From Spirochaeta africana DSM 8902 (GTDB lineage: Bacteria; Spirochaetota; Spirochaetia; DSM-27196; DSM-8902), in NCBI RefSeq assembly GCF_000242595.2, contig NC_017098.1:2356001-2420000 (forward strand): 64,000 nt of DNA, written 5' to 3'. Positions 32,439 to 51,789 of this stretch are shown here, piece after piece. The stretch's first letter is position 1. Each line of letters opens with the position of its first letter. The position numbers and the translations under genes are program-made. A model generated the notes under the pieces. That model did not search any database and was not told the DNA's origin. It saw nothing but the letters and a program-made list of their open reading frames with translations.

Positions 32439-32441
32439 GGG

Positions 32442-33359: not shown

Positions 33360-33373
33360 CGACTACCTCCGGG

Positions 33374-34432: not shown

Positions 34433-34435
34433 ACC

Positions 34436-36139
34436 CTACTCCTCCATCAACCAGGTGCGGATAAGCTGGGCAACATCCTCGGGATGCTCACGCGCCATAT
34501 TGATCGCATGCTCCTGCAGTTCCAGCCGGGCTCGCTCCTCGACCGACATCTCGACCTCGGTACCTTCTTCCTCGGCACTGCGCAAGGCAGCCTCACGCAT
34601 TGCCTGGTGCTGCCGTGCGAGTTCTTCCTCTCGCAGCCGGCGCCGACGCTCGATCTCGCGCGAGATAAGACGGAAGGCGATAAACGATACCAGCAGGATG
34701 GCAATACCAATAAGCACGTACAGAACAATCTGCTGAACCTGCTGGCGCCGCAGGAACTCCTGGTCCTCCTCAGCGAACTGACTGGTGCGGTCGAACTGGA
34801 TGTGCTGTACCGTTACCACATCACCACGATCACGGTTATACCCCACCGCTGCTTCGATAAGCTCCCGGGCATGTGCCAGCTCTTCACTGGAAACCGGGGT
34901 ATATTCACGCACCACCTGATTGTTCTCGATCTGCACCTGCCCCCGGTCGTCATATACCTTGCGCCAGATACCGTCCAACGCGACCGACACCGTAATCCGG
35001 CGCACCTCGGGACTCTTTTCTTCCTGGATAAAGCGGCGATTGATCTCGTTATTCACCTGCTGTTCGGTACGATTATACCGGCCAACCAGACCTTCAAGAT
35101 CCTTGTATCCCGGCGGCATCTGACCTTCCTGGCCGGGAGGACCCTCAGGGTTAAAGCCGGTACCTTCATAGTGCTCATCGAAACTGCGCACACTGCGGGT
35201 AACCGACATAATCCGCTCGCTGTCGTCGAATGGCGTACGCGGGTTATTCGGCCGAATCTCGATGGGAAAAAATTCCTCGGTTTCCTCGGTTCGCTTGCCC
35301 ATATCCATATCAACGTTGATGTTGGTAACCACGAACCGGCTGGGCGTATAGATGGTAGACAGCGCGCGCTGTATCTCGGTGCGAAACTGCCGTTCACGGT
35401 TACGCACGAGCTCCAGTTCACGCCGGGTCAGCTCCAGGCGGTCAAAATCAGCCAGATTCACGAAATCGTTGAGCACCCGACCGCTGCGGTCGGTGATGGT
35501 GATGTTTTCCGGAGCCAGCCCCGCTACAGCGAACTGGATCAGTTTCTCTATACCTTCAATCTTTTTGCGATCCTCGGCGATATTGGATCCAGGTTTCGGG
35601 GTAATTATGACCGACGCGGTAAACGGGGTCTGATCCTCCGCGAACAGCTCCCGCTCCGGCATTTCCAGGATTACGCTGGCAGCGTCTACATCCTCAAGCG
35701 AAACGATGTGATCCTGAAGTTGCCGGGTGATTGCACGGCGCAGATTGACGTTGCGTTCGAAATCCGTCTGGGTCCATCGGTCGATATCGAACAGCGACCA
35801 TGGATCTGTGCCGGACGGCACCAGATCCTCACGGGTCAGCACCGCACGCATGCGGCGTGCTGTCGCCGCATCCGGCACCATGATCACCCCCTCGCCGGTT
35901 ACCGTCGAGTTGATATTTTCCTGGTCGAGCCGTGAGCGAATACGATCCAGCGAGGCCTGATCAGTTACCGGCTGGCTGAACAGCGGCACCCAGGGCGAAG
36001 AGGTACTCACACTGGTCAGCACTACCAGCCCGATAATGGCGGCGGCGATAACCCCGATAAAGATCGCTTTCTGTGCGACGCTCCATTTTCCCCAGACGGT
36101 CTTGATCTGACTTACCGTCTTCTGTAAAAAATCGTTCAT
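34436..36139 (-). CDS. fliF: Flagellar MS-ring protein FliF
   Basis: This 567-residue protein forms the MS ring. The first membrane helix is at about 27-48, a periplasmic body with ring-building motifs follows (MPERELFAEDQTPFTASVII), and a second helix near 440-465 precedes a charged cytoplasmic tail that binds FliG. I chose ATG 36139 (MNDFLQKTVSQ) since GGGAGGGG lies just upstream. It follows fliE by 51 bp. Confidence 0.95.
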   Translation of the reverse strand: MNDFLQKTVSQIKTVWGKWSVAQKAIFIGVIAAAIIGLVVLTSVSTSSPWVPLFSQPVTDQASLDRIRSRLDQENINSTVTGEGVIMVPDAATARRMRAVLTREDLVPSGTDPWSLFDIDRWTQTDFERNVNLRRAITRQLQDHIVSLEDVDAASVILEMPERELFAEDQTPFTASVIITPKPGSNIAEDRKKIEGIEKLIQFAVAGLAPENITITDRSGRVLNDFVNLADFDRLELTRRELELVRNRERQFRTEIQRALSTIYTPSRFVVTNINVDMDMGKRTEETEEFFPIEIRPNNPRTPFDDSERIMSVTRSVRSFDEHYEGTGFNPEGPPGQEGQMPPGYKDLEGLVGRYNRTEQQVNNEINRRFIQEEKSPEVRRITVSVALDGIWRKVYDDRGQVQIENNQVVREYTPVSSEELAHARELIEAAVGYNRDRGDVVTVQHIQFDRTSQFAEEDQEFLRRQQVQQIVLYVLIGIAILLVSFIAFRLISREIERRRRLREEELARQHQAMREAALRSAEEEGTEVEMSVEERARLELQEHAINMAREHPEDVAQLIRTWLMEE

Positions 36140-36190
36140 ATCCCCTCCCAGAATTACGAACGCCATGGTACATCATCAGTATACTACATG

Positions 36191-36520
36191 CTAACGCAGA
36201 TTGATAATATCCTTGTAACCCTGAACAACTCTGTCTACAACATTTTTTGTCAGGTTAAGTGCGAGCTCGGCCTTGGCAGTGGCGATGGTAACATCATGAG
36301 CATCCACCTTGTCCGGATTCAGCGCAGCGGTAACCGAAAGCTCGGCAGCCTCATTCTGCAGGGTATTAACCTCTTTCAGGCTGTTCATGAGCATGTTACC
36401 GAACCCCGCAGACTCCGGCTGCTGCGGACTGTCGCCAGGGGCTGCGAGATGGGTCTGGTGTGTACGCAGCAGAGAAAACTGATCTCCGTGCACCTGTTGT
36501 ATATTCAGTCCATTCATCAT
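36191..36520 (-). CDS. fliE: Flagellar MS-ring/rod junction protein FliE
   Basis: This 109-residue protein has the FliE C-terminal signature (PDKVDAHDVTIATAKAELAL) ending DRVVQGYKDIINLR. FliE joins the rod to the export gate and MS ring. The order flgB-flgC-fliE-fliF is conserved. Two adjacent ATG codons could start it. Confidence 0.92.
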   Translation of the reverse strand: MMNGLNIQQVHGDQFSLLRTHQTHLAAPGDSPQQPESAGFGNMLMNSLKEVNTLQNEAAELSVTAALNPDKVDAHDVTIATAKAELALNLTKNVVDRVVQGYKDIINLR

Positions 36521-36542
36521 ATATCCCCTCCCGTGGCTATGA

Positions 36543-37004
36543 TTATGCTCTTCCTATATTGAGTGCCCGCTGAAACATCTGCTTGGCACCGTTGATCACC
36601 TGACTGTTGGCATCATAACTGCGCGATGCGGAAATCATGTCTACCATTTCCTCCACGATATTAACATTCGGCATCTCGACATATCCTTCCCGCGGACCGC
36701 TCCTGATGGCATCAGGATGGGTTGGATCGTAAACCAGTCGCGGCGGCTCATCCATGTCCTTTTCGATCCCGGTTACCCTGACCCCTTTTCCGATACCGTT
36801 ATCCATATTTTCGGGCAGGAACGGCGTGCGCCAGTATGGCTGCTCAACCCGGGGACGGACGATCACCCGACTGCGACGGAATGGTCCCCCCTCCGGCGTC
36901 CGGGTAGTGCTGGCATTGGCGATATTGTCAGCAATCACATCCTGTCGCAACCGCTGTGCGCTCAACCCGCTGGCTGCGGTATTAATTGCCTGAAACATTC
37001 CCAT
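36543..37004 (-). CDS. flgC: Proximal rod protein FlgC
   Basis: This 153-residue rod subunit starts MGMFQAINTAASGLSAQRLR and continues with IADNIANASTTRTPEGGPFR; it ends with the FlgC-type AKQMFQRALNIGR. The middle motif VEMPNVNIVEEMVDMISASR is diagnostic. It lies 10 bp after flgB and 22 bp before fliE. Confidence 0.95.
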   Translation of the reverse strand: MGMFQAINTAASGLSAQRLRQDVIADNIANASTTRTPEGGPFRRSRVIVRPRVEQPYWRTPFLPENMDNGIGKGVRVTGIEKDMDEPPRLVYDPTHPDAIRSGPREGYVEMPNVNIVEEMVDMISASRSYDANSQVINGAKQMFQRALNIGRA

Positions 37005-37014
37005 TCTTGCCCCC

Positions 37015-37431
37015 CTACCTTAATACAATATTGACCTGGCGAAACTGAGAGCTCAGGTTTTCAGTCATCATCTGATACGCCAGCTGTGAATTGAGCAGAT
37101 TCATGGACTCGATCTCAATATCCACATTATTCCCGTTGTTCTTTGTCGAGGTGGTAAAATCAAGATTCCGTCGCGGTCGAACATCGCGATAGTCCATCGG
37201 CCGATGAAACGGAATATGACGATCATGGGTCAAGCGCTGCGGAAAAGGCTCGTATTTTTCCGACTCCAGCGCCTGACGCAGCGAGGTTTCAAAGTTGATC
37301 TCTGAGCGCTTGAAGTTCGGGGTATCTACATTGGCGATGTTGTCCGCAATGACCGACTGACGCAGCATGTTCACATCCATGGTGCGGTGGAGAATATCAG
37401 TTGTCCTGCCAAAGCTTGAATTACCAAACAT
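37015..37431 (-). CDS. flgB: Proximal rod protein FlgB
   Basis: This 138-residue rod subunit carries the rod motif MLRQSVIADNIANVDTPNFK and ends MTENLSSQFRQVNIVLR, typical for FlgB. I chose ATG 37431 (MFGNSSFGRT), 9 nt after GAGGAGG, rather than the upstream 37455. It is the first flagellar gene and begins only 34 bp after hslU, so it has little room for a promoter of its own. Confidence 0.94.
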   Translation of the reverse strand: MFGNSSFGRTTDILHRTMDVNMLRQSVIADNIANVDTPNFKRSEINFETSLRQALESEKYEPFPQRLTHDRHIPFHRPMDYRDVRPRRNLDFTTSTKNNGNNVDIEIESMNLLNSQLAYQMMTENLSSQFRQVNIVLR

Positions 37432-37465
37432 TTTTTTCAGCCTCCTCGTCACCATCTATAATCGA

Positions 37466-38836
37466 CTAAAGAATATACCGACTTAAGTCCTGGTCTTGAA
37501 TTATCTCACCAAGCCGCTCCTGCACATACTGCGGCGTAATCGGAATGGTCTGTCCGGCCAGATCGGTGGCGGTAAAGCTGACATCCTCCAGCAGTACCTC
37601 CATAACGGTGTGCAGGCGCCGGGCACCGATATTCTCTGAACGGGAGTTCACCTCGGCGGCGATACGACAAATTTCACGAATAGCCTCCTCGCTGAACTCC
37701 AGGAATACGTCCTCTGTCTTCAAGAGCTCGGTGTACTGCCGGATCAGCGAATTCTGCGGCTGGGTGAGAATCAGATAAAAGGCATCGGCATCCAGCGGCT
37801 CAAGCTCGACACGCAACGGGAAACGCCCCTGCAACTCGGGAATCAGATCACTGGGCTTGGAGGTATGGAATGCCCCGGCAGCAATAAAAAGAATGTGACT
37901 GGTATCAACCATCCCGTACTTGGTATTCACCTGGGATCCCTCAACGATCGGCAGGATATCCCGCTGGACCCCCTCCCGACTGACATCTGCCCCTGAGCGG
38001 GATTCCTTGGCCGCTATCTTGTCGACCTCATCGATAAAGATAATCCCCATCTGTTCGACACGCTGCCGGGCCAGATCGGCCACCTGTTCGGTATCAACCA
38101 GCTTTTCCATTTCATCCGCAAGCAGAATCTCGCGGGCGCGCTTTACGGTAGTACGCTTCTTCTTTTTTTTGCCGCCAAGCAATCCGCCAAGCCCGCCCAG
38201 ATTCATCTCCATTTCCTCGAAGCTGGAACCGGAAAAAATCTCGATAGCCGGAAAGTTCTGTTTGGTGATATTCACCTCAACCTCTTTGTCATCAAGATCC
38301 CCATTGCGAAGCTTGCGCCGGAATTTCTCCCGGGTAGAGGAACCGGCCTCCTCCGTGACTGCGGAATGCGCTGTTTCGTCATCCTCTACGGGAGGTTTGG
38401 CGGGCTTGACACCGGGCAGGAGCAGATCCAGCAGCTGCTCCTCGGTGCGCTTCTCGGCCTCCTCCCGCACCCGCTCCTGCTGCTCAGCCTTGACCATGGC
38501 GACCCCGGAAGACATGAGGTCGCGTACCATCGACTCGACATCACGCCCCACATAGCCGACCTCGGTATATTTAGTGGCCTCTACCTTCAGAAACGGCGCC
38601 CCGGTCAGCTTTGACAGGCGACGCGCAATCTCGGTCTTACCCACACCGGTTGGACCGATCATAATGATGTTCTTGGGCGAGACCTCGTCCCTGAGTTCCT
38701 CAGACAACCGATCCCGGCGCACCCGATTTCGCAGGGCGATGGCGACCGCTTTTTTTGCCTGCTGCTGCCCGATGATAAACTTGTCCAGCTCGGCTACAAT
38801 TTCTGCCGGTGTCATCTGCTCGATGTTGATCTTCAT
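37466..38836 (-). CDS. hslU: HslU (ClpY) AAA+ unfoldase of the HslUV protease
   Basis: This 456-residue ATPase unfolds substrates for HslV. It starts [20 protein letters not shown] with ATG 38836 overlapping the hslV stop as ATGA. Walker A is [14 protein letters not shown], Walker [12 protein letters not shown]; the intermediate domain lies between. The C-terminus SRYIL is the tail that inserts into HslV. A longer open frame upstream lies inside hslV and is not used. Confidence 0.95.
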
Positions 38837-39366
38837 GCCAGCTCCTCCAGGACAATATTCTGATTGGTATAGATGCAGATGCGCCCGGCAATCTCCAGAC
38901 TCTGCCGGGCTATCTCGGCAGCGGGGAGATCGGTATTCCCCAGCAGGGCAAGAGCTGCGGAATAGGCGTAGTTGCCCCCTGAACCGATCGCGATCGCGCC
39001 GTCCTCCGGCTCGATGATATCCCCGGTGCCGGATATAAGCAGGGTTCGCTCCCGATCTGCAACCAGCAGCAGTGCTTCCAGCCGCCGCAGCATACGGTCG
39101 GTACGCCAATCCTTGGCCAGTTCTACTGCGGCCCTGGTCAGGTCTCCGGCATACTCCTTGACCCGTCCTTCGAATTTTTCAAACAGGGTAAAGGCATCGG
39201 CTGTGGCGCCGGCGAAACCGACCAGGATTCTGTCGTCATAGATGCGCCGGATCTTCCGTGCATTGCCTTTCATCACACTGTTCCCCATCGTCACCTGACC
39301 ATCGGCTGCCATGGCAACCTTGCCGTCACGAATAACTGCAATAACCGTCGTACTGCGAACCTTCAT
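38833..39366 (-). CDS. hslV: HslV (ClpQ) protease subunit
   Basis: This 177-residue proteasome-related peptidase has the mature N-terminus [20 protein letters not shown], so Thr6 would be the catalytic Thr1 after removal of a five-residue propeptide (MKVRS). The motif [20 protein letters not shown] is family-typical. It overlaps xerC by 4 bp and hslU by 4 bp. The propeptide is longer than the single Met in enteric bacteria. Confidence 0.94.
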
Positions 39367-40295
39367 CCCGTAAACTCCTCTTCATCTGTGGGCGATACCC
39401 GCCGGCGACCATGCGGGTGTGCATTGGCGTACACCGACCGCAGCGTTCCCAGCCCGACATGGGTATAAATCTGGGTAGTGGAAAGCTTGGCATGCCCCAG
39501 CATCTCCTGCACTGACCGGATATCCGCGCCATTCTCCAGCAGGTGGGTGGCAAAACTGTGCCGAAACTGGTGCGGGGTCACATGCTGCCGCAACTCACTC
39601 TCCTGCACCCGCTTGTCTATGATGGCGGCAGCGCCACGAACCGTCAACCGACCACCGCGCTGATTGATCATGATGGCCATCTGCCCGGATTTACCGATGC
39701 GGGCAAGGCGCTCACGCCGCATGGCCAGATACTCGCTGACCGCGGCACAGGCAGCAGCCCCCAGAAAGACAACCCTGTCCCGATCACCCTTACCGCGAAC
39801 CAGCAAGGTTTTCCGCCCAAGATCAAGACTGCCCAGGTTAGCCTGCAGCAACTCACTGATCCGGCAGCCGCCGCTGTACAGCAGCTCAAACAAGGCACGA
39901 TCCCGCGCCGCAGCAAAGTCACCCCCACTGATCGTCAACAGCTCACGTAGCTCGTCAACCTGTAGAACCTTGGGCAGGTGTTTCTCCAGCTTGGCCGATT
40001 TCAGGGCGTCGGTCGGGTTATGGGAAAAACCGCGCTCCCTCACCAGAAACCTGAACAGCGAACGGACACTCGAAAGCCGCCGATTCATGCTGCGGGGTGA
40101 CAACCCGTTTTTTCGTGCCGCAACCACCCAGGAACGAATCTCTTCTCGCTCAACCTCGGCCAGCCGGAGACCTCGCGCATCGATATGCCGATTAAAATCC
40201 TCCAGATCCCGCCGGTACGCGGTTATGGTTGCCGGACTCAGGTGACGGATTCTGGCCTGGTACGTGAGAAAGTCTTCAATCATCTCGGTACTCAT
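39363..40295 (-). CDS. xerC: Tyrosine recombinase XerC
   Basis: This 310-residue recombinase resolves chromosome dimers at dif with XerD. It has a SAM-like core-binding domain ([17 protein letters not shown]) and the catalytic residues: Arg in GGCRISELL, Lys in VRGKGDRDR, HxxR in [12 protein letters not shown], and Tyr in [12 protein letters not shown] 40295 follows GGGAGG. Calling it XerC rather than XerD rests mainly on its place directly before hslVU, as codV in Bacillus. It overlaps dprA. Confidence 0.9.
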
Positions 40296-41160
40296 CAGCA
40301 CCCTCCCGATGTGCGGCCGGGATCAGCTCGGCTGCCCGCCCCCTGATCACCTTTACCCCGTTGAGCACCAGCTCCCTGCAGCCATCACCCAGAACACTGT
40401 CGCAGCCAGCCTGGTGGACCAGCACCTCACGCTTTCCGGCAGCAAAATCGGCCGTAATCAGTGCTCCGCTGTTGCGGGGAGCCTCCACAATAACCGTCAG
40501 CGCGGAAAGCCCGGCAATCACCCGGTTGCGTAACGGGAAACGCCGTTTTGCCGGCATGGTCCCCGGCGGGAACTCGCTGATCAGGGCTCCATCCTGCGCC
40601 AGCAGCCGGCTGGCAAGCTGCAGATTGCCGCGCGGATATATCCGGTCTACCCCGGATCCCAGCACAGCCGCGGTTATGCCGCCGCCGCCAAGGGCACCCT
40701 CGTGGGCCGCAGCATCAATCCCCATTGCCAGACCGCTTACCACACAATAGCCCAGTCGCACCAGTTCAAAGCCGACCCGATAGGCTGCATGCCTGCCCTC
40801 GCTGGTCGGATGACGAGTCCCCACCACGCTGATGCACGGCCCCTGCGGCAGCTCCCCGCGCACATACAGCACGACCGGGGGGTGATCCATTTCCCGTAAC
40901 AGGGCCGGATACGCGGAGCTCCATATATGCAGCGCATGAATGCCGGCGGCATCCATCCAGTCCTGCTGGCGATACACACGCTGAATCAGAACCTCAGGAT
41001 CGAACTCCTGGCCGCGATACGGCCGTCCGACTGCCTGCAGCATGTCACGGGCGGTAATCCGTCGCAGATCATCCAGCCCGCTGTACAGTTCCATGAGCTG
41101 CAGCCGTTCAGCGCTGTTCAGAAACGGGAGATGCTGCAATGCAATAGCCAGTTCCAGCAT
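40276..41160 (-). CDS. dprA: DNA processing protein DprA (Smf)
   Basis: This 294-residue Rossmann-fold protein loads RecA on incoming single-stranded DNA in transformable bacteria. Motifs are VVGTRHPTSEGRHAAYRVG, GLAMGIDAAAHEGAL, VLGSGVDRIYPRGN and the C-terminal PGTMPAKRRFPLRNRVIAGL. A short helical N-terminal extension (about 1-75) is present. Whether this organism is competent cannot be told. Its start shares one base with the TPR lipoprotein stop. Confidence 0.93.
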   Translation of the reverse strand: MLELAIALQHLPFLNSAERLQLMELYSGLDDLRRITARDMLQAVGRPYRGQEFDPEVLIQRVYRQQDWMDAAGIHALHIWSSAYPALLREMDHPPVVLYVRGELPQGPCISVVGTRHPTSEGRHAAYRVGFELVRLGYCVVSGLAMGIDAAAHEGALGGGGITAAVLGSGVDRIYPRGNLQLASRLLAQDGALISEFPPGTMPAKRRFPLRNRVIAGLSALTVIVEAPRNSGALITADFAAGKREVLVHQAGCDSVLGDGCRELVLNGVKVIRGRAAELIPAAHREGADEYRDD

Positions 41161-41876
41161 CAGCGTTCTCCCAACAGCTGCGATCGCAGCCGATTTGCCT
41201 GTCGGCGAACCTCAGCATTACGCGTCAAATCGATGATAGCATCATAATCCGCGACTGCTTCCTGCTGATTCCCGAGCGCGACATGGGCATAGGCACGCAA
41301 AAACCTGCCGTCAATATGCTGCCGCTGCCCCTCAAGAAGGCGATCGAGATGCGGCAGTGCATCGGCTGGACGTTCCAGCTCAAAGACCAGCAGCACCGCC
41401 AGACCGTACAGGGCCTGACGCATATTCGGATCAAGCTCCAGGGCACGCTCATATGCCTGTTCGGCAACACGAAACAATCGCGAGCGCTCGGCTGAATCAT
41501 AGCTTCCCTTGGCGCTCTGTGCCGCTGCAGCTGCATAGTACGCATGCAGCTGGGCATTCGCCGGGGTAATCTCCAGTGCCTGCTCCAGGGCCTGCCTGGC
41601 AGGCCCATACATCTCCCGTTCCAACAGCCGGATCCCCAGCATGCGGTAATAGATCATCAACTGACCGTTTGCCTGCACCTGCTGATCCACGCGCTCACGG
41701 TAGCGCCGCACCTCTCGTTCTATCTCCTGGATACGTTCATCGCCAATCTCCTGGCCGACAAACATCGTATCCTCCAGCTCGACCATTCGATCAACCATTG
41801 GATCGTCACCGGCGCAGCCGACAAGGGCCGCCAGTAACCCAGCGCAAAGTATCGGTAAAAAACGTTTTTGATGCAT
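41160..41876 (-). CDS. TPR-repeat lipoprotein
   Basis: This 238-residue protein starts MHQKRFLPILCAGLLAALVGC with lipobox LVGC, so it is a predicted lipoprotein. An acidic helix follows, then TPR-like repeats (about 65-230): ARQALEQALEITPANAQLHA, ERALELDPNMRQALYGLAVL, LRAYAHVALGNQQEAVADY. I chose ATG 41876, since the longer reading from 41924 precedes the signal sequence. TPR lipoproteins often scaffold envelope assembly; here the role is unknown. It follows xerD by 105 bp, the largest gap in the cluster. Confidence 0.8.
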   Translation of the reverse strand: MHQKRFLPILCAGLLAALVGCAGDDPMVDRMVELEDTMFVGQEIGDERIQEIEREVRRYRERVDQQVQANGQLMIYYRMLGIRLLEREMYGPARQALEQALEITPANAQLHAYYAAAAAQSAKGSYDSAERSRLFRVAEQAYERALELDPNMRQALYGLAVLLVFELERPADALPHLDRLLEGQRQHIDGRFLRAYAHVALGNQQEAVADYDAIIDLTRNAEVRRQANRLRSQLLGER

Positions 41877-41981
41877 ATGCACCCCCCGATACTTACTACG
41901 CACTTTCCCCTCCGTCCGCATCATGAATACCTGGTCGAGACCCCGAAAACTGATTCCCTGTACCGGGATTCGCTGCTGCGA

Positions 41982-42911
41982 TCATGGCAGTACCTCCCGT
42001 ACCGCTTCCTCGCTGCCCAGAATCTCTATCGAACGCGGATGACAGCTGCGGTGGATATCCTGTAATGAGGATGTATCGATATGGGTATACACCTGGGTGG
42101 TACTGATGTCCGCATGTCCCAGCAGTTCCTGCACTGCCCGCAGATCTGCACCGCCCTCCAGCAAATGGGTAGCAAAGCTGTGACGCAGGGTATGCACCTT
42201 GGCATCAATCCCGGCGCGTGCCGTCAGTTCCTTAAACCGCTTCCAGATGCCCTTACGCGAAATACCGGCCCCCCGGCGTCCCACAAACACCTTGGGCTGC
42301 TCGATACCGGTCAGCTGCGGGCGGCCTTCGTCAAGATAGCGCCTGAGCCAGTAACGGGCTTCCTCTCCCATCGGCACCAGGCGCTCCTTGCGCCCCTTGC
42401 CATAGACCCGGACAATACTTTCACGCAGAAAAACCTGGGAAAGCTCCAGCTCCACCGCCTCGGAGATTCGCAGCCCGCATGAATACAGCAGCTCGAACAA
42501 TGCCCTATCGCGCAGCCCCAATGCCTCGGTAATATCGATGGTGTCCAGGATATGCTCAACCTCTTCGACCGAGAGCACCCCGGGCAGATGCATCCGGGCT
42601 TTGGGCATCTCGACCACCATTGCCGGGTTATCATCGCGCAGGCGTTCGAGGATACAGTACTGGAACAGTGACCGCAGGCTGGACACTGCCTTGGCTACCG
42701 TCCGCGAGTCGATGCTGCTTTCCTGCTGCCGTGCCAGAATATAGGCCACAATCATCTGCGGATCTGCCTCGGCGATGCCTGTTGCCTGCTGCTCAAGATA
42801 GCCGGCAAAACGCATCGACTCACGGTAATAGGTGTCTACTGTTGCCTCAGCGAGATGCAGCTCTACCAGGAGGTAGTCCCGAAAACGCTCAATCAGCTGC
42901 TGGTTGGTCAT
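41982..42911 (-). CDS. xerD: Tyrosine recombinase XerD
   Basis: This 309-residue protein has all tyrosine recombinase catalytic parts: [45 protein letters not shown] and GHADISTTQVYTHI. The XerD assignment is by similarity of the last block and presence of a second paralogue, xerC, 1.7 kb downstream. ATG 42911 overlaps the ftsZ stop as TGATG. Confidence 0.9.
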   Translation of the reverse strand: MTNQQLIERFRDYLLVELHLAEATVDTYYRESMRFAGYLEQQATGIAEADPQMIVAYILARQQESSIDSRTVAKAVSSLRSLFQYCILERLRDDNPAMVVEMPKARMHLPGVLSVEEVEHILDTIDITEALGLRDRALFELLYSCGLRISEAVELELSQVFLRESIVRVYGKGRKERLVPMGEEARYWLRRYLDEGRPQLTGIEQPKVFVGRRGAGISRKGIWKRFKELTARAGIDAKVHTLRHSFATHLLEGGADLRAVQELLGHADISTTQVYTHIDTSSLQDIHRSCHPRSIEILGSEEAVREVLP

Positions 42912-44086
42912 CACATCCCCGAGCCGCCGGCCGCCTTGCGCAGTCGTACAATCGTGGGCAGTTCCAGCTGCCCCTCGTCCTCGTGGTGCCCGGATCGCCC
43001 ATCCTTGCGGGACGTCAGCAGACGATTCCAGGTCTCCAGCGACATCACCTCTTCCTGCTTGCTCTCTTCTGCATGTTCAGCTGGCTCTGACGAATCGCTG
43101 TGCAGAGCCGCCTCCTTCTGAAAGCCGGTTGCAACCACCGTTACCTTCACCTGTCCATCCAGGTTGCGATCGATAACAGTACCCGGAATGATCAGCGCAT
43201 TACGATCAGCAGTATTGGTGATAATATTCACCACCTCTTCGAGCTCCATAAGGCTGAAATCACTGCCGCCGGTAACATTCACCAGGATTCCCTTGGCTCC
43301 CTCGATATGGGCATCCTCGAGCAGCGGGTTATTGATCGCGTTGGTTGCGGCATCCACAGCGCGATTATCCCCCTCACCGATGCCAATGCCCATCAAGGCG
43401 TCGCCCTGGCCACTCATGATTGTGCGAACATCGGCGAAATCAATATTGATATCACCAGCAATGGTAATCAGATCGGAGATACCCTGCACGCCTTGTCGCA
43501 GTACATCATCCGCCATCAGCAAGGCCTGCTCATACGGGGTCTTGCGCTCCACTATCCGCAGCAGATGCTGGTTGGGTATGGTTATCAGGGTATCAACCTG
43601 CTCGCGCAGCTTGGCAACCCCCTCGTCGGCCAGTCTCCCCTTGCGGCGCCCCTCGAATTCGAACGGCTTGGTCACAACCGCCACCGAAAGAATCCCCAAC
43701 TCCCGGGCAATCTGGGCGATTACCGGAGCGGCACCGGTGCCGGTGCCACCGCCCATACCAGCGGTAATGAACAGCATATCCGCACCGCGAACGGCATCTG
43801 CCAGGACCTCTTTATCCTCGTGAGCAGCCTGTTCGCCTACCTCTGGCTTGCCTCCCGCACCCAGACCTCCGGTAAGCTTGCGGCCAAGCGGGATCTTGGT
43901 GCCGGCCTGGCACCCCTGCAAGGCCTGCAGATCGGTATTCACCGCGATAAACTGCACATGCCGCAATCCGGCCTCGATCATGCGATTGACGGCATTGCTG
44001 CCCCCACCGCCAACACCGATAACCTTGATCACAGTCGGGCTGTCAGCCGACAGATCACCGGCATCTTCTATTACATCTAATCTCAT
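42911..44086 (-). CDS. ftsZ: Cell division GTPase FtsZ
   Basis: This 391-residue tubulin homologue forms the division ring. The tubulin signature is GGGTGTGA ([19 protein letters not shown]), the T7 loop is [13 protein letters not shown], and the C-terminal peptide that binds FtsA is [15 protein letters not shown] after a variable acidic linker. ATG 44086 follows GGGAGGGGAG. A longer reading from 44140 overlaps ftsA and is unlikely. It lies 29 bp after ftsA. Confidence 0.96.
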
Positions 44087-44115
44087 ACTCCCCTCCCATG
44101 ATTCGTATGATTCTG

Positions 44116-45351
44116 CTATTCGAAAAAATTCCGCACCCATGCCCCCAGCCGTGAAAACGGCGAGGTTCTGGTCTCCTTTACTCCTACAGCTGATTCCCCG
44201 GCTATTACCCTGGAGGCGCCATGCAGCACCAGTCCCACCGCCGATGCAAATTCAGGGCTGCGATACTCGTCGGTAATCCCGCCGTAACTGCCCGGCAGTC
44301 CGATCCTGGCGGCGGTCTGGAACACCTCCTGGGCCAGTTCAACCGCGCCGGGCATAAGCGCCCCACCGCCGGTAAGGACAACACCGCCAGCGAAGCGATC
44401 CCGATACCCCTTGGCGACTACCCGATCGCGCACCAGGGTAAAAATCTCTGCCATGCGGGGCTGCACAATCGAGCAGATGTCCATCTGTGAGATACTGACC
44501 GGTGGTCGCCCGCCGACCGCCGGAATAATTACCGGCTCATCAGCATCCACCATGCTGTCATGGCAGACTGCCGACTCGATCTTTATCTTCTCCGCAGCCT
44601 CGATCGGGGTCTTGAGCATGTATGAAAGATCCCCGGTTACCTGGGACCCGCCTACCGGGAGGACCGAGGTAAAGTAGGGCGCTCCATCGATATACAGCAG
44701 GGCATCGGTTGTGCCGCCGCCAAGATCGATGACCAGAACCCCCAGCTCCATCTCATCCTTGGTAAGAACCGCTTTTCCGGATGCAAGCGACTCGAGGATA
44801 ATATCCTCTACCTTGAAACCGGCACGGTTAATGCATTTGACCAGATTCTGTGCGCTGGTAACCGAACCGGTGATAATATGCACCTCGGCCTCCAGCCGGA
44901 CCCCGATCATATCCAGCGGATCCTTGATACCGCCCTGATCATCGACGATAAATTCCTGCGGGATAACATGCAGCAGCTCACGATCCATCGGGATTACCAC
45001 CGCCTTGGCGGCCTCCAGCACCCGGTCGTAATCAACCTTCTTTATTTCACGATCTCGCGAGGTAACCGCTACCACACCGCGACTGTTGATACCTTCAATA
45101 TGTCCGCCGGCAATCCCGGTAATCACCGAGAACACATCCCGTCCAGCCATCTGCTCGGCACGTTCAATGGCAAGACTCACCGACTGCAGGGTGGACTCAA
45201 TATTGATCACCACCCCTTTGCGCAGGCCGTGAGACGGGGCCTTGCCAATCCCGATTATCTCAAGATTTCCACTGTCGTCAAACTCAGCGACCACGGCGAT
45301 AACAGAGGTGGTTCCGATATCCAATCCGACAATGACATCATCATATGTCAC
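44116..45351 (-). CDS. ftsA: Cell division protein FtsA
   Basis: This 411-residue actin homologue anchors FtsZ. It begins [20 protein letters not shown] and contains SHMA-type [12 protein letters not shown], the phosphate loop [15 protein letters not shown] and [16 protein letters not shown]. The C-terminal amphipathic helix [12 protein letters not shown] provides membrane attachment. It follows ftsQ by 3 bp. Confidence 0.95.
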
Positions 45352-45354
45352 AGA

Positions 45355-46245
45355 TTAACCCTCCCTCTTGGTGTATATCACATCGTCGCCTCTGAAATCA
45401 ATTTCCCGGATGTCCCGAATCATCCCCTGGGCTGCAAGCACATCCAGAATCCGGATAATACCGGAGATCTTGTCCGGCTGCAGATCCTCCCCGATCAGAA
45501 CCGGCACCGGAACGTGGGTGAAGTACAGCTGCAGATCAAATCGGTGTTCATGGATCGGCTTGAACTCAACCTCGCTGATCACGTCAAACAACACCGGATG
45601 ACGCAGGCGCAGCTGCTCCAGGTCCTGCAGAACACCCCGCATGGCACTTGGCAAGCGGCTGCCCAGCTCGACATTATCAATCTCGAAACCGCCGAGCACC
45701 GGCAGACTCCGGTAGTCTTCGGGCACACCCCAGGCAAATGCGACCCCGTGCGAATCAACTACTACCGGCACCGCCTGACGACCCAGCCCACCCATGGTAA
45801 TTGCCAGAGGGGTCCGGCTGGACAGTGCAATCCGCAATGTTCCCGGAAAACTCTTGGTAACCTCGACGGTTTCCACCCGGGGAATTGCACGCAGGGCCTG
45901 TTCGATCCGGGCGGTATCCACAGAAAAATACAGATCGCCGCTGGCAAGGCCGGCATACTCAAGCAGATCATCGCTGCTCATGCGTACATCACCCTCGATA
46001 ATGACCTCGGTTATCGCAACCCGGGGGGCAACCTGAGTCTGGAACAGCAGTTCGGCGACAATCAGGGCCGAACCGACAAACAGCATCACAAACAGCAGGC
46101 GTTTCAGAAATCCACCGGATTGTTGATGCCCGGTTCCGCCGCGCCAGTCTCCCTGCGTGCCCGAATCCAGGCGAACCGGCTTGCGGTATTCCGGCTCAAA
46201 CCTGCGTGAGGACACTGACTGCTGGTACATCACCCTGTCAGCCAC
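45355..46245 (-). CDS. ftsQ: Cell division protein FtsQ/DivIB (POTRA domain)
   Basis: This approximately 296-residue protein has a charged cytoplasmic N-terminus, one membrane helix (RLLFVMLFVGSALIVAELLF), a POTRA domain (VAITEVIIEGDVRMSSDDLL) and the FtsQ domain. It links FtsA/Z to septal wall synthesis. The start is uncertain: GTG 46245 follows GGGGGG by about 5 nt and overlaps the ftsW stop by 8 bp, while ATG 46260 and ATG 46230 are also possible. Confidence 0.87.
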   Translation of the reverse strand: MADRVMYQQSVSSRRFEPEYRKPVRLDSGTQGDWRGGTGHQQSGGFLKRLLFVMLFVGSALIVAELLFQTQVAPRVAITEVIIEGDVRMSSDDLLEYAGLASGDLYFSVDTARIEQALRAIPRVETVEVTKSFPGTLRIALSSRTPLAITMGGLGRQAVPVVVDSHGVAFAWGVPEDYRSLPVLGGFEIDNVELGSRLPSAMRGVLQDLEQLRLRHPVLFDVISEVEFKPIHEHRFDLQLYFTHVPVPVLIGEDLQPDKISGIIRILDVLAAQGMIRDIREIDFRGDDVIYTKREG

Positions 46246-47380
46246 GTTCACCCCCCGCATCGTGCTCGGTATAGCGCGACAGGTTCAACAAGGCACCACA
46301 GATCCACAGGCTTACCATGGCCGAGGTCCCGCCGGATGAGAAAAACGGCAAGGTAATCCCGGTTGCGGGCAGCATCCCGGCTACCACCGCCATATTCAGC
46401 AAGGCCTGATACATCAGGACTCCACTCAGCCCGAATGCAGCCAGACGAACAACCCCGTAGTTGGCGCTGCGGGCGATCAGAAAACCGCGATACCCCAGGT
46501 AGAGAAACATTGCCAGAACGGCCAGCACACCGAGGTATCCGAGCTCCTCTCCGACGATGGCAAACAGGAAATCGCTGTGCGCCTCGGGCAGCAGGCCAAA
46601 CTTGTAGCGACCCATGCCGATTCCACGGCCCCAGAGACCGCCGGTCTGTAAGGCTGTTTGCGACATCAACACCTGATACCCCGATCCGCGCGGGTCGAGC
46701 GCAGGTTCAATAAACGAGATAATCCGGTTGACCCGGTGCTCACGAGACAGAATCAGGATGGTCAGTAACGGGACTGCCATAATAAAGAGACTGACAAAGT
46801 AGCGCAGCTTGACCCCGGCAGCATAAAAGATCAGGCCGGCAATCACTACAATAAATACCGTGGTGGAAAAATCATTCTGCAGGTACACCAGACCGGCTAC
46901 CAGACCGGTCATCATGAGCGGGGGTAACAGGGTATTCACCGGATCATCAAACCTGTCCTGCTTGCGCCCAAGCATACAACTCAGGTAGAGCACCAGGGTC
47001 AGCTTGACCAGCTCCGAGGGTTGAAAGGAAAACCCGAACAACACTATCCATCGGCGTGCACCCAGGTATGTCGCGCCCAACTGGGGGATAAAGGTAAGCA
47101 ACAGCAGCAGCATATTAAAAACAACAGCGTACGGTATTACCCGCTCGATAATCCGCAGATCGATACGCGACAGCACCAGCGCACCAACAATGCCAACCAG
47201 CATCAGTAAGGCCTGACGCTGTACAAAGTAAAAAGGGTTCTGAAACAATGCATCGGCACGTGAGTACGAAACCGAAAACAGCATGGTAAGTCCCACCCCG
47301 ACCAGTAACAGGGTTACAAAGATCAGCGGACGATCAAAGCGACGGGAAGGGGCTGTCTCGATCACAAATACGTTGCTCAT
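46238..47380 (-). CDS. ftsW: Septal peptidoglycan polymerase FtsW (SEDS family)
   Basis: This 380-residue protein has about ten membrane helices and SEDS motifs: GARRWIVLFGFSFQPSELVK, YLQNDFSTTVFI, PEAHSDFLFAIVGEELGYLG and LPFFSSGGTSAM. Together with a class B PBP it builds septal wall. No PBP gene lies next to it here. It follows mraY by 9 bp. Confidence 0.94.
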   Translation of the reverse strand: MSNVFVIETAPSRRFDRPLIFVTLLLVGVGLTMLFSVSYSRADALFQNPFYFVQRQALLMLVGIVGALVLSRIDLRIIERVIPYAVVFNMLLLLLTFIPQLGATYLGARRWIVLFGFSFQPSELVKLTLVLYLSCMLGRKQDRFDDPVNTLLPPLMMTGLVAGLVYLQNDFSTTVFIVVIAGLIFYAAGVKLRYFVSLFIMAVPLLTILILSREHRVNRIISFIEPALDPRGSGYQVLMSQTALQTGGLWGRGIGMGRYKFGLLPEAHSDFLFAIVGEELGYLGVLAVLAMFLYLGYRGFLIARSANYGVVRLAAFGLSGVLMYQALLNMAVVAGMLPATGITLPFFSSGGTSAMVSLWICGALLNLSRYTEHDAGGERG

Positions 47381-47389
47381 CGGTCCTCG

Positions 47390-48469
47390 TTATCGAATCT
47401 TCAGTGTCGACAGACTCAGGATTGCAAACAATCCGCCCAGAATCCAGAAACGGAGCACAACCTTGCTCTCCGCCCAGCCTTCAAGCTCAAAGTGGTGATG
47501 CAGCGGGGCCATCTTGAACACCCGCTTGCCAGTCAGTTTGTAGCCGGAAACCTGGATAATTACCGACAGTGTTTCCAGTACAAACACCCCGCCCACGATT
47601 ACCAGCAGCAGCTCATGCTTGATCATCATTGCCACCGTTGCCAGGATTCCACCCAGCGCAAGGCTGCCGGTATCACCCATCATCACCTCGGCAGGATGGC
47701 CGTTAAACCAGAGAAACCCGACACAGGCACCCACAACAGCCATGCAAAGGATGGCCAGTTCGCCGGCCCCTTGTACATACGGGATCTGCAGGTATTGGGA
47801 GAAATCAACGCGACCGGCGACATAGGCAAACAGGCCGAAAGTAAGGGCGACCAGAATTACCAGGCCGGTTGCCAGACCATCAAGCCCGTCGGTAAGATTT
47901 ACCGCATTGGAAAACCCGACCAGCCAGAAAATGCCGAACGGTATATACAGCAGACCCAGGTCGAGCACTGGCTGCTTGACCATAGGTATATACAGCAGCG
48001 TGGCCTCTTCACGACCGCCGGCATACAGTAAAAAGGCTACGGTGCCGGCTACGGCAACCTGTGCCAGGAGTTTTACCGAGGCTGAAAGCCCATCGGAGTT
48101 CTTGTGCCGAATCTTGCGGAAATCATCGATAAAACCGATCGTTCCGAACCCCACGATCGACACCAACCCGATCCAGGTGAACGGACTGCGAACATCCATC
48201 CACAGGAGAATGGCCAGCACCATCGACACTATCATGAGCACCCCTCCCATCGTCGGAGTGCCGGACTTTACCTGATGTGTCTGCGGACCATCACTGCGGA
48301 TTTCCTCGCCGAATTTCAGGCGCCGAAGCATTTCGATCACCTTGGGTCCGAACAGAAAGCTGATCAGGAGCGAGGTCACCGCGCCATACGCGGCTCGAAA
48401 AGTGATGTACTGGAAAATGTTGAACGGGGAAAAATACTCCGTGAGCGGAAACAGAAACTCCTTCAGCAT
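47390..48469 (-). CDS. mraY: Phospho-MurNAc-pentapeptide transferase MraY
   Basis: This 359-residue membrane enzyme makes lipid I from UDP-MurNAc-pentapeptide. Motifs are HQVKSGTPTMGGVLMI, GFIDDFRKI, NAVNLTDGLDGLATG and MMGDTGSLALGG, and the C-terminal MAPLHHHFELEGWAE; all catalytic Asp residues appear present. It overlaps murF by 7 bp. Confidence 0.96.
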   Translation of the reverse strand: MLKEFLFPLTEYFSPFNIFQYITFRAAYGAVTSLLISFLFGPKVIEMLRRLKFGEEIRSDGPQTHQVKSGTPTMGGVLMIVSMVLAILLWMDVRSPFTWIGLVSIVGFGTIGFIDDFRKIRHKNSDGLSASVKLLAQVAVAGTVAFLLYAGGREEATLLYIPMVKQPVLDLGLLYIPFGIFWLVGFSNAVNLTDGLDGLATGLVILVALTFGLFAYVAGRVDFSQYLQIPYVQGAGELAILCMAVVGACVGFLWFNGHPAEVMMGDTGSLALGGILATVAMMIKHELLLVIVGGVFVLETLSVIIQVSGYKLTGKRVFKMAPLHHHFELEGWAESKVVLRFWILGGLFAILSLSTLKIR

Positions 48470-49863
48470 CGCGCACCTCCAAACTGCTGGGCATGCTGGA
48501 TACGCTCGCTGATCACCTCGAGCCCGACCCCCCGACTGCCCTTTAGCAGCACCAGGTCACCAGGTTTCAGATACGCCAGCAGCTCATCGACAATATCTGC
48601 CGGCGAGCTTCCCATGTCCCGGTCCGGATGACTGCCGCCTGCGGCCCGTAAAAACTCCTCACCCACCAGAAACAGGCGATCGCACCCGGCTACCTCGGCA
48701 AGAATGCGGCGATGCTCATTACCGGCAGTCTCACCCAGCTCACGCATATCCCCCAGCACCGCAATCTTGCGGCCGGTGGCAGGCACGGCACGAAAAAACT
48801 CCAGTGCCGCCAGCATGCTGTCGGGATTGGCGTTGTAGCAATCCTGGATAATGGTCACTTCACCACGCAGGATCTGACCGCGTCCAAACGGCGCCTGCAC
48901 CCGTGCAATCCCCTGAAGTACCGACTCGGGCGCCGCTCCCAGTTCCACCGCGACGCTCACCGCTGCCAGCAGATTGGACAGATTATGCATCCCGGGCAAA
49001 GCAAACACCACCTCGCGGTCGCCCCATCGCAGCCGCAGACCATCAAGACCAAGATCCTCCACCGCACGATAACCAGGGGTATGGTGCACCCCGAAAGGCA
49101 CAACCTGTCCATGCACACCTTCGGCGAGAAAATCATAGTACGGCTCGTCCTCAGGCAGGAAAGCACGCTGTCGTCCGGTAAAACAGGAAAAAATTGCCTT
49201 TTTCTCCTCAGCTATACCCTGCTGCGAACCGATATTGCCGATATGGGCAACCCCGATGTTTGTGAGCACCGCGACGTCAGGAAAAACTATCCGGGCCAGT
49301 GCAGCCATCTCTCCCCGTTCGCTCATGGCAAGCTCAAAAACCGCATAGCGGTGCTCATCCGTCAGGCCAAAAACACCGACCGGAACCCCGATTACCGAGT
49401 TGTAGTTGCCAGCAGTTTTGAACACCGGATACTCGCACTCAAGGATTGATGCCAGGATTTCCTTGGTGGTTGTTTTGCCATTACTGCCGGTAACCGCAAT
49501 CTTGACCAAACGATCGCGTCGATCAACATACCACCGGGCCAATCGATGCAAAGCCAGCAGCGGATCATCAACAATCAGGATACGCTGCTGATAGGAACGC
49601 CCGATCTGGCCAAAAATTCTCTCCGCCTGATCCTCGGCAGCAAGAGCCAGCAGGGCGCCTGCATCCAGCGCCTGTTGAATATAGTCATGCCCATCAGCAT
49701 ATCTTCCGACCAGGGGCACGAACAGTCCGCCCTGTCCGATGGCGCGACTGTCGATACTGACGCTGGTAATAATCTCCCGCTCGTCACACTGCGGATGGAG
49801 GGCTCCACCCAGACAGGCAGCGGCGGTACGCATGGTGAAAGGAACCCCGACTACACTATTCAC
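48463..49863 (-). CDS. murF: UDP-MurNAc-tripeptide--D-Ala-D-Ala ligase MurF
   Basis: This 466-residue cytoplasmic ligase adds D-Ala-D-Ala to the wall precursor. The ATP site is VTGSNGKTTTKEILASIL, followed by VFELAMSERGEMAALARIV and CYNANPDSMLAALEFF. The GTG start at 49863 follows GGAGG by 6 nt and overlaps the ftsL stop by 8 bp (GTGAATAG). murE, murD, murG and murC are absent from this cluster. Confidence 0.94.
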   Translation of the reverse strand: MNSVVGVPFTMRTAAACLGGALHPQCDEREIITSVSIDSRAIGQGGLFVPLVGRYADGHDYIQQALDAGALLALAAEDQAERIFGQIGRSYQQRILIVDDPLLALHRLARWYVDRRDRLVKIAVTGSNGKTTTKEILASILECEYPVFKTAGNYNSVIGVPVGVFGLTDEHRYAVFELAMSERGEMAALARIVFPDVAVLTNIGVAHIGNIGSQQGIAEEKKAIFSCFTGRQRAFLPEDEPYYDFLAEGVHGQVVPFGVHHTPGYRAVEDLGLDGLRLRWGDREVVFALPGMHNLSNLLAAVSVAVELGAAPESVLQGIARVQAPFGRGQILRGEVTIIQDCYNANPDSMLAALEFFRAVPATGRKIAVLGDMRELGETAGNEHRRILAEVAGCDRLFLVGEEFLRAAGGSHPDRDMGSSPADIVDELLAYLKPGDLVLLKGSRGVGLEVISERIQHAQQFGGARC

Positions 49864-50137
49864 GTGCGCCCTCCCTGCGGCGAATATAGATGATTTCGGC
49901 CGGAAAGCGCTGATGGTAACGAGGATCTGCCTCGGCAGCCTCTCGCACCCGCGCAGGGCTGGTAAGCCTGGATATATCAGCTATGGCACGCTTGTTCGCC
50001 TCAATCATGGCTCGCTGCTCGCGATCCATACTGCGGATGGTATTTTCCTGACGCACATAGCGAAAGGTGTGGTATGCATTCGCAAACATGAGCATCGGAA
50101 TGCACAGCATCAGGCCTAAAACGATCTTCCTCTTCAT
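49856..50137 (-). CDS. ftsL: Cell division protein FtsL-like
   Basis: This 93-residue bitopic protein has one N-terminal membrane helix (VLGLMLCIPMLMFANAYHTF) and a short coiled coil, then the REAAEADPRYHQRFPAEIIY tail. Size, topology and place between rsmH and murF fit FtsL, which stabilises FtsQ/FtsB-type complexes. Sequence similarity alone would be weak. Confidence 0.82.
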   Translation of the reverse strand: MKRKIVLGLMLCIPMLMFANAYHTFRYVRQENTIRSMDREQRAMIEANKRAIADISRLTSPARVREAAEADPRYHQRFPAEIIYIRRREGARE

Positions 50138-51087
50138 GCGGACCTCGGCATTTCGGCTATCTTTTCTACCACACGCAGCTTGGCGCTGCGTGAGGGAGGA
50201 TTTTCCTGCACCTCTTTCTCATCGGCAAGAATCGGCTTCTTGTTGACTAAACGCAGCACCGGCTGGACCTCAATCGCACCCTTCAGGGATTCAGGGGCCG
50301 GAATCGAACTCCTTGCCAGGTCCCGAAAGAATCGCTTCACCATCCGGTCCTCAAGACTGTGAAAGGTAATAATCCCCATGCGCCCGCCCATTTGCAGGCA
50401 TCGAACACCGCCCTCAAGCGCACGCTCGAGCCTGTTCAGCTCATCATTCACCACGATTCTCAGCGCCTGGAATGTTTTTGTAGCAGGATGGATGCGTCCA
50501 TGACGGTAGGCCACTGGAACCGCTTGAAACACCGCTTCGGCAAGCTCGGCTGCGGTGGCAAACGATTCAGTTTTTCTGCGCTCAACCAGTGAGCGCGCGA
50601 TACGTCGACTGTAGCGCTCCTCGCCATAGCGGAAAATCAGATCCGCCAGCTCCTTTTCCGGTGTGAGCATGACTACATCACGGGCAGACTCCCCCTGGCC
50701 CGGGCGCAGACGCATGTCCAACGGTTCATCAGCCCGAAAGCTGAAGCCGCGGTCACTCGCCTGATAGTGAAACACGCTGATGCCCAGGTCCAGGAGGATT
50801 CGATCGGGCCTGACCGCCAATGGGCAGGACCTTAAAAAGTCGTCAAACCAGGTATTCTCCAGTCTGACCCGATCGCCGAAAGAGGCAAGCCTCCCCTCCG
50901 CTCGCGACAAAATGTTCGGATCGGTTTCCAGACCAACCAGTGTCAGATCCGGAAACCTCTCCAAAAAGGCTGCTGAATGCCCCCCCTCTCCCAGGGTGCC
51001 ATCTATCATCAGTTGTCCTGCACTGTCAGGAGCCAGATATTCCAGCACCTGTTCGGCCATTACCGACCGATGATAGTACGGTTGCAT
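50134..51087 (-). CDS. rsmH: 16S rRNA (cytosine-N4)-methyltransferase RsmH (MraW)
   Basis: This 317-residue SAM-dependent enzyme methylates C1402 of 16S rRNA. It begins MQPYYHRSVMAEQVLEYL, with the SAM loop IDGTLGEGGHSAAFL and the motifs RILLDLGISVFHYQASDRG and MGIITFHSLEDRMVKRFF. ATG 51087 follows GAGGGG. It is second in the dcw cluster, 19 bp after mraZ. Confidence 0.96.
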   Translation of the reverse strand: MQPYYHRSVMAEQVLEYLAPDSAGQLMIDGTLGEGGHSAAFLERFPDLTLVGLETDPNILSRAEGRLASFGDRVRLENTWFDDFLRSCPLAVRPDRILLDLGISVFHYQASDRGFSFRADEPLDMRLRPGQGESARDVVMLTPEKELADLIFRYGEERYSRRIARSLVERRKTESFATAAELAEAVFQAVPVAYRHGRIHPATKTFQALRIVVNDELNRLERALEGGVRCLQMGGRMGIITFHSLEDRMVKRFFRDLARSSIPAPESLKGAIEVQPVLRLVNKKPILADEKEVQENPPSRSAKLRVVEKIAEMPRSA

Positions 51088-51106: not shown

Positions 51107-51550
51107 CTACGAGAACGGGAGGAGCTCTCCCAGTCCTTCAGCAGCACTTTTGAATTCCGCTTCTTTATCGTCCAGGTACGTCCGGTATTCGTCCGCATCC
51201 CAGATCTCCAGATACTGGGCAATACCCAGTATCACGGTATCCTTGGTTAACCGGGAATACTCCCGGAGCGATGGCGGGATGGTAATGCGCCCAGCCTTGT
51301 CGATCTCGACCTCTTGTGCAGGTGCGATGATGCGACGCTGGATAAGCCGCGCCTGTGCATTGAACGGCGAGGTTGACGCCATGATTGAATCCGACAGACG
51401 TTTCCAGTTTTCCGGCGGAAACATCCAGATACATTGTTCAATGCCTTGCGTCAGCACCAGGCAGCTGCCAGGCAATTCGGTTCGGATACGTGAGGGAATC
51501 AGCAGACGTCCCTTTTCGTCCAAGGTGTTCCTGTAATCCCCTGTAATCAT
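51107..51550 (-). CDS. mraZ: Transcriptional regulator MraZ
   Basis: This 147-residue protein has two AbrB-like SpoVT domains, with DxxxR motifs in TLDEKGRLLIPSRIR and EIDKAGRITIPPSLREYS. MraZ binds repeated TGGGN boxes upstream of its own gene. Four such boxes with a 10-bp period lie right before it. ATG 51550 follows an in-frame GTG at 51553; the ribosome-binding site is weak. It is first in the 49-gene cluster. Confidence 0.95.
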   Translation of the reverse strand: MITGDYRNTLDEKGRLLIPSRIRTELPGSCLVLTQGIEQCIWMFPPENWKRLSDSIMASTSPFNAQARLIQRRIIAPAQEVEIDKAGRITIPPSLREYSRLTKDTVILGIAQYLEIWDADEYRTYLDDKEAEFKSAAEGLGELLPFS

Positions 51551-51558
51551 CACCTATC

Positions 51559-51593
51559 CACCACTTCTCCCCAGCAATTACCACTTTCTCCCA
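51559..51593 (-). promoter_or_regulatory. MraZ operator: four TGG(G/T)N boxes at exact 10-bp spacing
   Basis: On the minus strand TGGGA (51589-51593), TGGTA (51579-51583), TGGGG (51569-51573) and TGGTG (51559-51563) occur with a period of exactly 10 bp. This is the known MraZ box pattern, TGGGN with 5-nt spacers. They lie between the promoter and the mraZ start, so binding would probably repress the cluster. Confidence 0.8.
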
Positions 51594-51605
51594 CTTGCAT
51601 CCTTT

Positions 51606-51633
51606 ATACTATTACATCATGAGCAGTTGTCAA
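51606..51633 (-). promoter_or_regulatory. Sigma70-type promoter of the mraZ cluster
   Basis: On the minus strand a perfect TTGACA (51628-51633) is followed after 16 bp by TAGTAT (51606-51611). Transcription would start near 51599, just before the MraZ boxes. No stronger promoter is seen in the intergenic region. Confidence 0.65.
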
Positions 51634-51720: not shown

Positions 51721-51753
51721 AAAAAAAGGCCGTCGCAGCTGTGTGCGACGGCC
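51721..51753 (-). terminator. Rho-independent terminator after the GH57 gene
   Basis: On the minus strand a 10-bp perfect stem (GGCCGTCGCA / TGCGACGGCC, 6-nt loop) is followed directly by seven T. It ends the nadK-to-GH57 operon and insulates it from the mraZ promoter. Confidence 0.92.
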
Positions 51754-51789
51754 TGGTTCGAACCGCAATCAATACATGCGAGCACCCGA

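Follow-up and report, generated by a model that had tools for sequence, protein, structure and literature searches.

A phased four-box array upstream of mraZ in Spirochaeta africana is a probable site of MraZ autoregulation, with a candidate sigma-28-type promoter further downstream before flgB

The analysis presented here concerns a window of 64,000 nucleotides from the genome of Spirochaeta africana DSM 8902 (contig NC_017098.1, positions 2,356,001 to 2,420,000). The coordinates given below are those of this window, and the genes, boxes and promoter motifs described are all read on the minus strand. The mraZ gene (51107..51550) encodes a predicted autorepressor (Pfam MraZ, E 1e-35; TIGR00242, above cut-off), and no other gene of the MraZ family was detected in the genome. 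Its start is probably the ATG at position 51550, with the GTG at 51553 as a possible alternative. MraZ proteins are recognized by two DxxxR motifs, both of which can be read in the translation as DEKGR and DKAGR, and the solved MraZ structures include relatives of this protein. The mraZ gene is followed by rsmH, ftsL, murF, mraY, ftsW, ftsQ, ftsA and ftsZ (42911..51087; ftsL is assigned by position only, with no Pfam match), and the gaps from mraZ through ftsZ, the one between mraZ and rsmH included, range from -25 to 19 nt. Next come a xerC-like gene, a gene for a TPR protein, dprA, a xerD-like gene, hslV and hslU (37466..42914; the xer and hsl names are assigned from family and order). The largest gap in this stretch, 57 nt, precedes the TPR gene. 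The flagellar block then begins with flgB, flgC, fliE, fliF, fliG, fliH and fliI (31056..37431; fliH and fliI by position). From mraZ to fliI, the genes of the window occupy a single strand with gaps of at most 57 nt. A gene for a WhiG/FliA-type sigma factor (12259..13047; NF004935, E 8.3e-129, above cut-off) is located farther along the same strand.

Four short boxes stand between a putative promoter and the mraZ ATG: TGGGA (box 1, 51593-51589), TGGTA (box 2, 51583-51579), TGGGG (box 3, 51573-51569) and TGGTG (box 4, 51563-51559). Box 3 is preceded by C and the three others by G, and the leader that carries them is A/G-rich. The initial annotation had described these boxes as exactly phased every 10 bp downstream of a TTGACA promoter and before mraZ, a description that direct reading of positions 51593-51559 confirmed. 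The promoter is composed of a -35 element TTGACA (51633-51628) and a -10 element TAGTAT (51611-51606) separated by a spacer of 16, and scores 10/12. Promoter-like sites are not in excess overall (8 versus 8.2 in shuffled sequences), and this promoter is therefore credible by its conservation rather than by its score. A site of at least 9/12 was indeed found before mraZ in 35 of 39 genomes of the order, all 35 with a spacer of 16, and in 35 of 40 other loci, 22 of these with the same spacer. On the upstream side, an intrinsic-terminator-like hairpin (51727..51754, minus strand; 11-pair stem with 8 GC pairs, then a T run) follows a branching-enzyme-like gene, for which the best NCBIfam matches are below cut-off, and would insulate the mraZ promoter from it.

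This array is nearly unique in the window and in the genome. A four-box TGGKR pattern searched with up to 2 mismatches matched the window once, with 0 mismatches, and only 2 of 100 shuffles of the window contained any such match. In the whole 3.29-Mb genome, an exact three-box pattern retrieved only the mraZ site, as two overlapping matches, and a four-box pattern of the GTGG type, allowed up to 2 mismatches, was matched by the mraZ site alone, against 5 matches for its reversed control. Extending the TGGKR pattern to 3 mismatches produced 23 places in the genome versus 16 for the reversed control. Among these, the mraZ array alone is perfect, one other place is the same array displaced by one box, and both of the places with 2 mismatches are inside long open frames. 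Since this last scan does not rise clearly above its control and its 2-mismatch places fall in open frames, no credible second operator emerged from the exact three-box, TGGKR, GTGG-type and strict-array scans of the genome, as judged on the places with up to 2 mismatches.

The conservation of the array was followed in a sample of 46 genomes of the order, Spirochaeta africana included. The mraZ gene was detected in 40 of them and its upstream sequence could be scored in 39, one contig ending at mraZ. In 35 of these 39 genomes, boxes 1, 2 and 4 all carry TGG and keep a common 10-bp register, versus a mean of 0.1 and a maximum of 1 in 20 rounds of shuffling, a count in which the genomes are related and not independent. 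The four remaining genomes (L096, L132, L133 and L135), which belong to one genus, carry three consecutive GTGG boxes. Among further distinct loci taken from named contigs, the same layout was found in 26 of 40, for a shuffle mean of 0. This box scoring left out L069 (partial mraZ), L129 (contig ending at mraZ) and two named loci with duplicate sequences; another comparison of the arrays left out L069 and two duplicates. The 14 further loci that deviate do so in distinct manners. Seven of them, the five Nitrospirota loci L072-L076 together with L062 and L071, have three consecutive boxes, and in L055 and L059 box 4 is one base off TGG. L060, L061, L063, L065 and L067 have scattered boxes only. 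These five are Spirochaetaceae MAG loci in which TGGGA or TAGGA boxes are shifted or scattered, which suggests a decay of the operator or a change of register. Elsewhere, in many of the loci L034-L038, L043, L046, L048, L049 and L052-L054, an in-frame ATG overlapping box 4 seems by eye to be the start of mraZ, so that the array and the start codon nearly coincide.

A strict array pattern applied to the 46 genomes of the order was found in 28, once in each, and directly before mraZ in 26 of the 28; the reversed control gave two matches, both in the Spirochaeta africana genome. The 18 genomes without the strict pattern comprise 6 in which mraZ was not detected and 12 in which the mraZ array departs from it, 4 of these being the three-box genomes mentioned above. 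The two matches of the strict pattern away from mraZ are GTGG arrays with a 10-bp period (G014:C185:115-148 and G040:C164:5183-5216) and look repeat-like by eye.

These comparisons also refine the definition of the box. Boxes 1, 2 and 4 all read GTGG, the TGG being preceded by a G, in 34 of the 39 genomes of the order and in 26 of the 40 other loci: the core of the box is GTGG and not TGGGN. In the relatives, box 3 is degenerate and reads ATAGGG, ATAGGA, AAGGGA and similar (TAGG, AGGG), and among the 61 in-register arrays (35 in the order and 26 elsewhere) only that of Spirochaeta africana has TGG in all four boxes. Three MraZ boxes were reportedly described in E. coli by Eraso in 2014, versus four in Spirochaeta africana, the third of which is the one degenerate in relatives. 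The regular alternation of G and T at the fourth letter of the boxes, to which the initial annotation had drawn attention, does not share this conservation. Only 2 of the 39 genomes of the order, Spirochaeta africana included, and none of the 40 other loci show the succession G, T, G, T; the alternation is consequently regarded as incidental, and its reading as a code was rejected.

Comparable arrays have been described in other bacteria. In the dcw operon of Burkholderia cenocepacia, MraZ shifts a 250-bp fragment in which inspection revealed, downstream of the -10 element, four repeats of 7 nt separated by 3 nt (PMC7761207). The Spirochaeta africana array shares with it the four repeats, the 10-bp period, the position downstream of the -10 element and before mraZ, and the GTG core. 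It differs in its placement, since the B. cenocepacia site overlaps the start site (PMC7761207) whereas the present array is predicted to begin at about +7, and in that the B. cenocepacia fragment is shifted by MraZ whereas binding to the present array is a prediction. In Mollicutes, the MraZ sites reported by Fisunov in 2016 are described as direct repeats of AAAGTG[T/G] (PMC8475190). Direct repeats, a GTG core, a location in the mraZ promoter and a single site in the genome are common to both, and the Mollicutes unit fits box 2 with its flank, AAAGTGGT, whereas in the remaining boxes the bases upstream of the TG do not follow AAAGTG. As in Spirochaeta africana, the repressor boxes of E. coli stand upstream of mraZ, where they are reported to control the dcw genes (PMC8475190, PMC7761207).

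The array gathers the traits by which an MraZ operator can be recognized, namely at least three direct repeats of the GTGG/TGGG type with a 10-bp period and a place before mraZ that coincides with its promoter or follows it. The assignment of the boxes to MraZ, already proposed in the initial annotation, is supported by the identity of the adjacent gene, by the conservation of the array at mraZ across the order and by a layout matching that of B. cenocepacia. Judged from sequence, the array is most plausibly an operator through which MraZ regulates its own gene, an element of a known kind, and by analogy with E. coli, B. cenocepacia and Mycoplasma it would be bound by MraZ and mediate repression; the transcription start sites and the extent of the transcript are likewise predicted.

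Other explanations of the repeats were weighed against this operator. Chance repetition in a purine-rich leader would fit the A/G-rich composition, but it is contradicted by the boxes standing in register in 35 of the 39 genomes of the order, where shuffling gives a mean of 0.1, and its likelihood is practically negligible. The G-tracts could instead reflect a nucleic-acid structure, a G-quadruplex in the DNA or in the leader RNA. Such a structure is reported, from spectroscopy and reporters, for the S. aureus mraZ promoter (PMC11796246), and four GG runs are kept in 31 of the 35 arrays of the order and in 19 of the 26 from elsewhere. A quadruplex, however, does not need the exact 10-bp period, which is the trait that is conserved, and one box is devoid of a GG run in 11 of the 61 arrays. 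A structure in place of an operator is highly improbable on these grounds, even if the two are not mutually exclusive. Slightly smaller still are the chances that the repeats are a ribosome-binding sequence rather than an operator. The best anti-SD match does begin at box 4, at 5-6 nt ahead of the ATG, in 15 of the 35 arrays of the order, but the matches have weak energies (-5.5 to -8.4 kcal/mol among genomes of the order), the best one lies at least 25 nt from the start in 7 of the 35 arrays, and in Spirochaeta africana it overlaps the ATG itself and no box. Moreover, one such site cannot account for four phased boxes. A second role of box 4 as a weak ribosome-binding site is conceivable at most in some genomes, Spirochaeta africana not being one of them. 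The degeneracy of box 3 was also considered as the mark of a ribosome-binding site, an idea not supported in general, the best anti-SD matches being scattered.

The reach of the operator was then considered over the whole gene run. Of the 40 order genomes with mraZ, 24 have flgC 13-17 kb downstream of it, on one contig and in the same orientation; the 16 others have an mraZ contig that stops short of the expected flgC position. The same-strand order from mraZ to flgC is kept in 13 of 13 fetched clusters, 5 of which gave no mraY match and 1 no match for the TPR gene. The gap before the TPR gene amounts to 955 nt in L087 and 783 nt in L089, and the gap to the chosen flgB start to 90 nt in L087 and 76 nt in L092. 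The hslV and hslU genes (37466-39366 in the window) lie between the division and flagellar genes in 14 of 14 clusters, the window included. In the cluster, flgB-promoter and junction comparisons, the hslU query carried 31 extra residues upstream of the ATG.

A sigma-28-like promoter motif was found before flgB (37459..37486), with TTAA at 37486-37483, a spacer of 16 and GTCGATTA at 37466-37459, where it overlaps the hslU stop codon. Sigma-28 promoters follow a consensus of the type TAAA-N15-GCCGATAA, and the motif TTAA-N16-GTCGATTA of the window reaches 9/12. A score of at least 9/12 before flgB was obtained in 31 of 43 genomes, versus 8.6% of shuffled stretches, and at least 10/12 in 19 of 43, versus 0.5% of shuffles. 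As the window itself scores only 9/12, a value reached by 8.6% of shuffles, and 12 of the 43 genomes remain below 9, the case for this promoter rests on the recurrence of the motif at one syntenic place, as expected of a sigma-28 (FliA) promoter. This recurrence was examined at every junction from mraZ to flgC in 14 clusters, over the 100 nt preceding each start (9 loci for mraY and 13 for the TPR gene). Sigma-70-like sites of at least 9/12 occur at mraZ in 14 of 14 clusters and sigma-28-like ones at flgB in 12 of 14, with 0-2 at each other junction in either case: within 100 nt of the starts, the 14 clusters have no recurrent promoter at the other mraZ-to-flgC junctions. The sole strong internal sigma-70-like site between mraZ and flgB in the window lies inside ftsA (45281-45254; 10/12, with a TG before the -10 element). 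As a shared promoter it was rejected, 0 of 13 relatives reaching 9/12.

The flgB motif resembles the mapped flaB2 promoter of Treponema denticola, given as -10 CCGATAA and -35 TTAA (PMC9481697). In the flgB superoperon of Borrelia burgdorferi, division genes are likewise located upstream of flgB, and a promoter is suggested directly before this gene; it is described as a sigma-70 promoter and sigma-28 as absent there (PMC10802407), in contrast to the sigma-28-like motif of Spirochaeta africana.

The initial annotation had raised the possibility that the MraZ site controls flagellar as well as division genes. A single transcription unit, in which the operator at 51559-51593 would set both groups together via read-through, draws on the uninterrupted run from mraZ to fliI, the linkage of mraZ and flgC in 24 of 40 order genomes and the order kept in all fetched clusters. 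By coordinates, moreover, no terminator-like site falls in any intergenic gap from mraZ to flgB. Contiguous same-strand genes in conserved order are indeed what a single operon from mraZ to the flagella would present; a flgB gene devoid of its own promoter is not what is observed, the sigma-28-like motif there being, besides the mraZ promoter, the only one to recur at a junction. The sigma factor gene farther along the same strand also speaks against a single unit, as do the terminator-like sites, which number 21 between 38000 and 53500 versus a shuffle mean of 12.2, many of them inside genes, and could weaken or attenuate read-through. A single unit is accordingly possible but unlikely. What stands of the earlier proposal is the unbroken, conserved gene run from mraZ to flgC; the recurrent motif before flgB and the lack of a credible second array in the genome scans weigh against direct control, so that any flagellar control by MraZ would need read-through. 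The simplest reading would be two promoters, with the division genes served by a sigma-70 one that MraZ controls and the flagellar genes by a sigma-28 one.

The reading that we favor, with a probability of roughly 0.83, combines these elements: the boxes would be the operator through which MraZ represses its own gene together with the division and cell-wall genes, and the genes from flgB onward would have their own sigma-28-type promoter, MraZ affecting them only via read-through. Transcription from the sigma-70-type promoter TTGACA-16-TAGTAT would start near 51599. The boxes would then span about +7 to +41 of the transcribed leader and share a single face of the helix. A ring of MraZ seated on the array would then block promoter occupancy and initiation, or promoter clearance. 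This negative feedback would bear on mraZ-rsmH-ftsL-murF-mraY-ftsW-ftsQ-ftsA-ftsZ and would probably reach the co-oriented genes up to hslU.

A more speculative extension of this model, which we regard as quite unlikely, supposes that the MraZ ring reads a 1-2-x-4 operator whose weak third box tunes the feedback, and that leaky read-through past hslVU provides an MraZ-dependent basal flagellar level to which sigma-28 adds the rest. Spirochaeta africana, with its four TGG boxes, would then be a tighter-binding variant. If this were true, division rate and flagella would be coupled.

A narrow literature search on MraZ in spirochaetes gave no paper, and among the matches listed in a broader one no title dealt with spirochaete mraZ, results that do not prove the absence of such work. 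To a known type of operator, the present case adds, modestly, a weak third box and a layout with two promoters. The analysis indicates that the feedback switch known for MraZ from E. coli, Burkholderia and mycoplasmas occurs in nearly the same form across an order of spirochaetes. The layout marks the probable end of the division unit and the start of the flagellar unit, and the recurring weak third box offers a hint on how the MraZ ring may engage phased half-sites.
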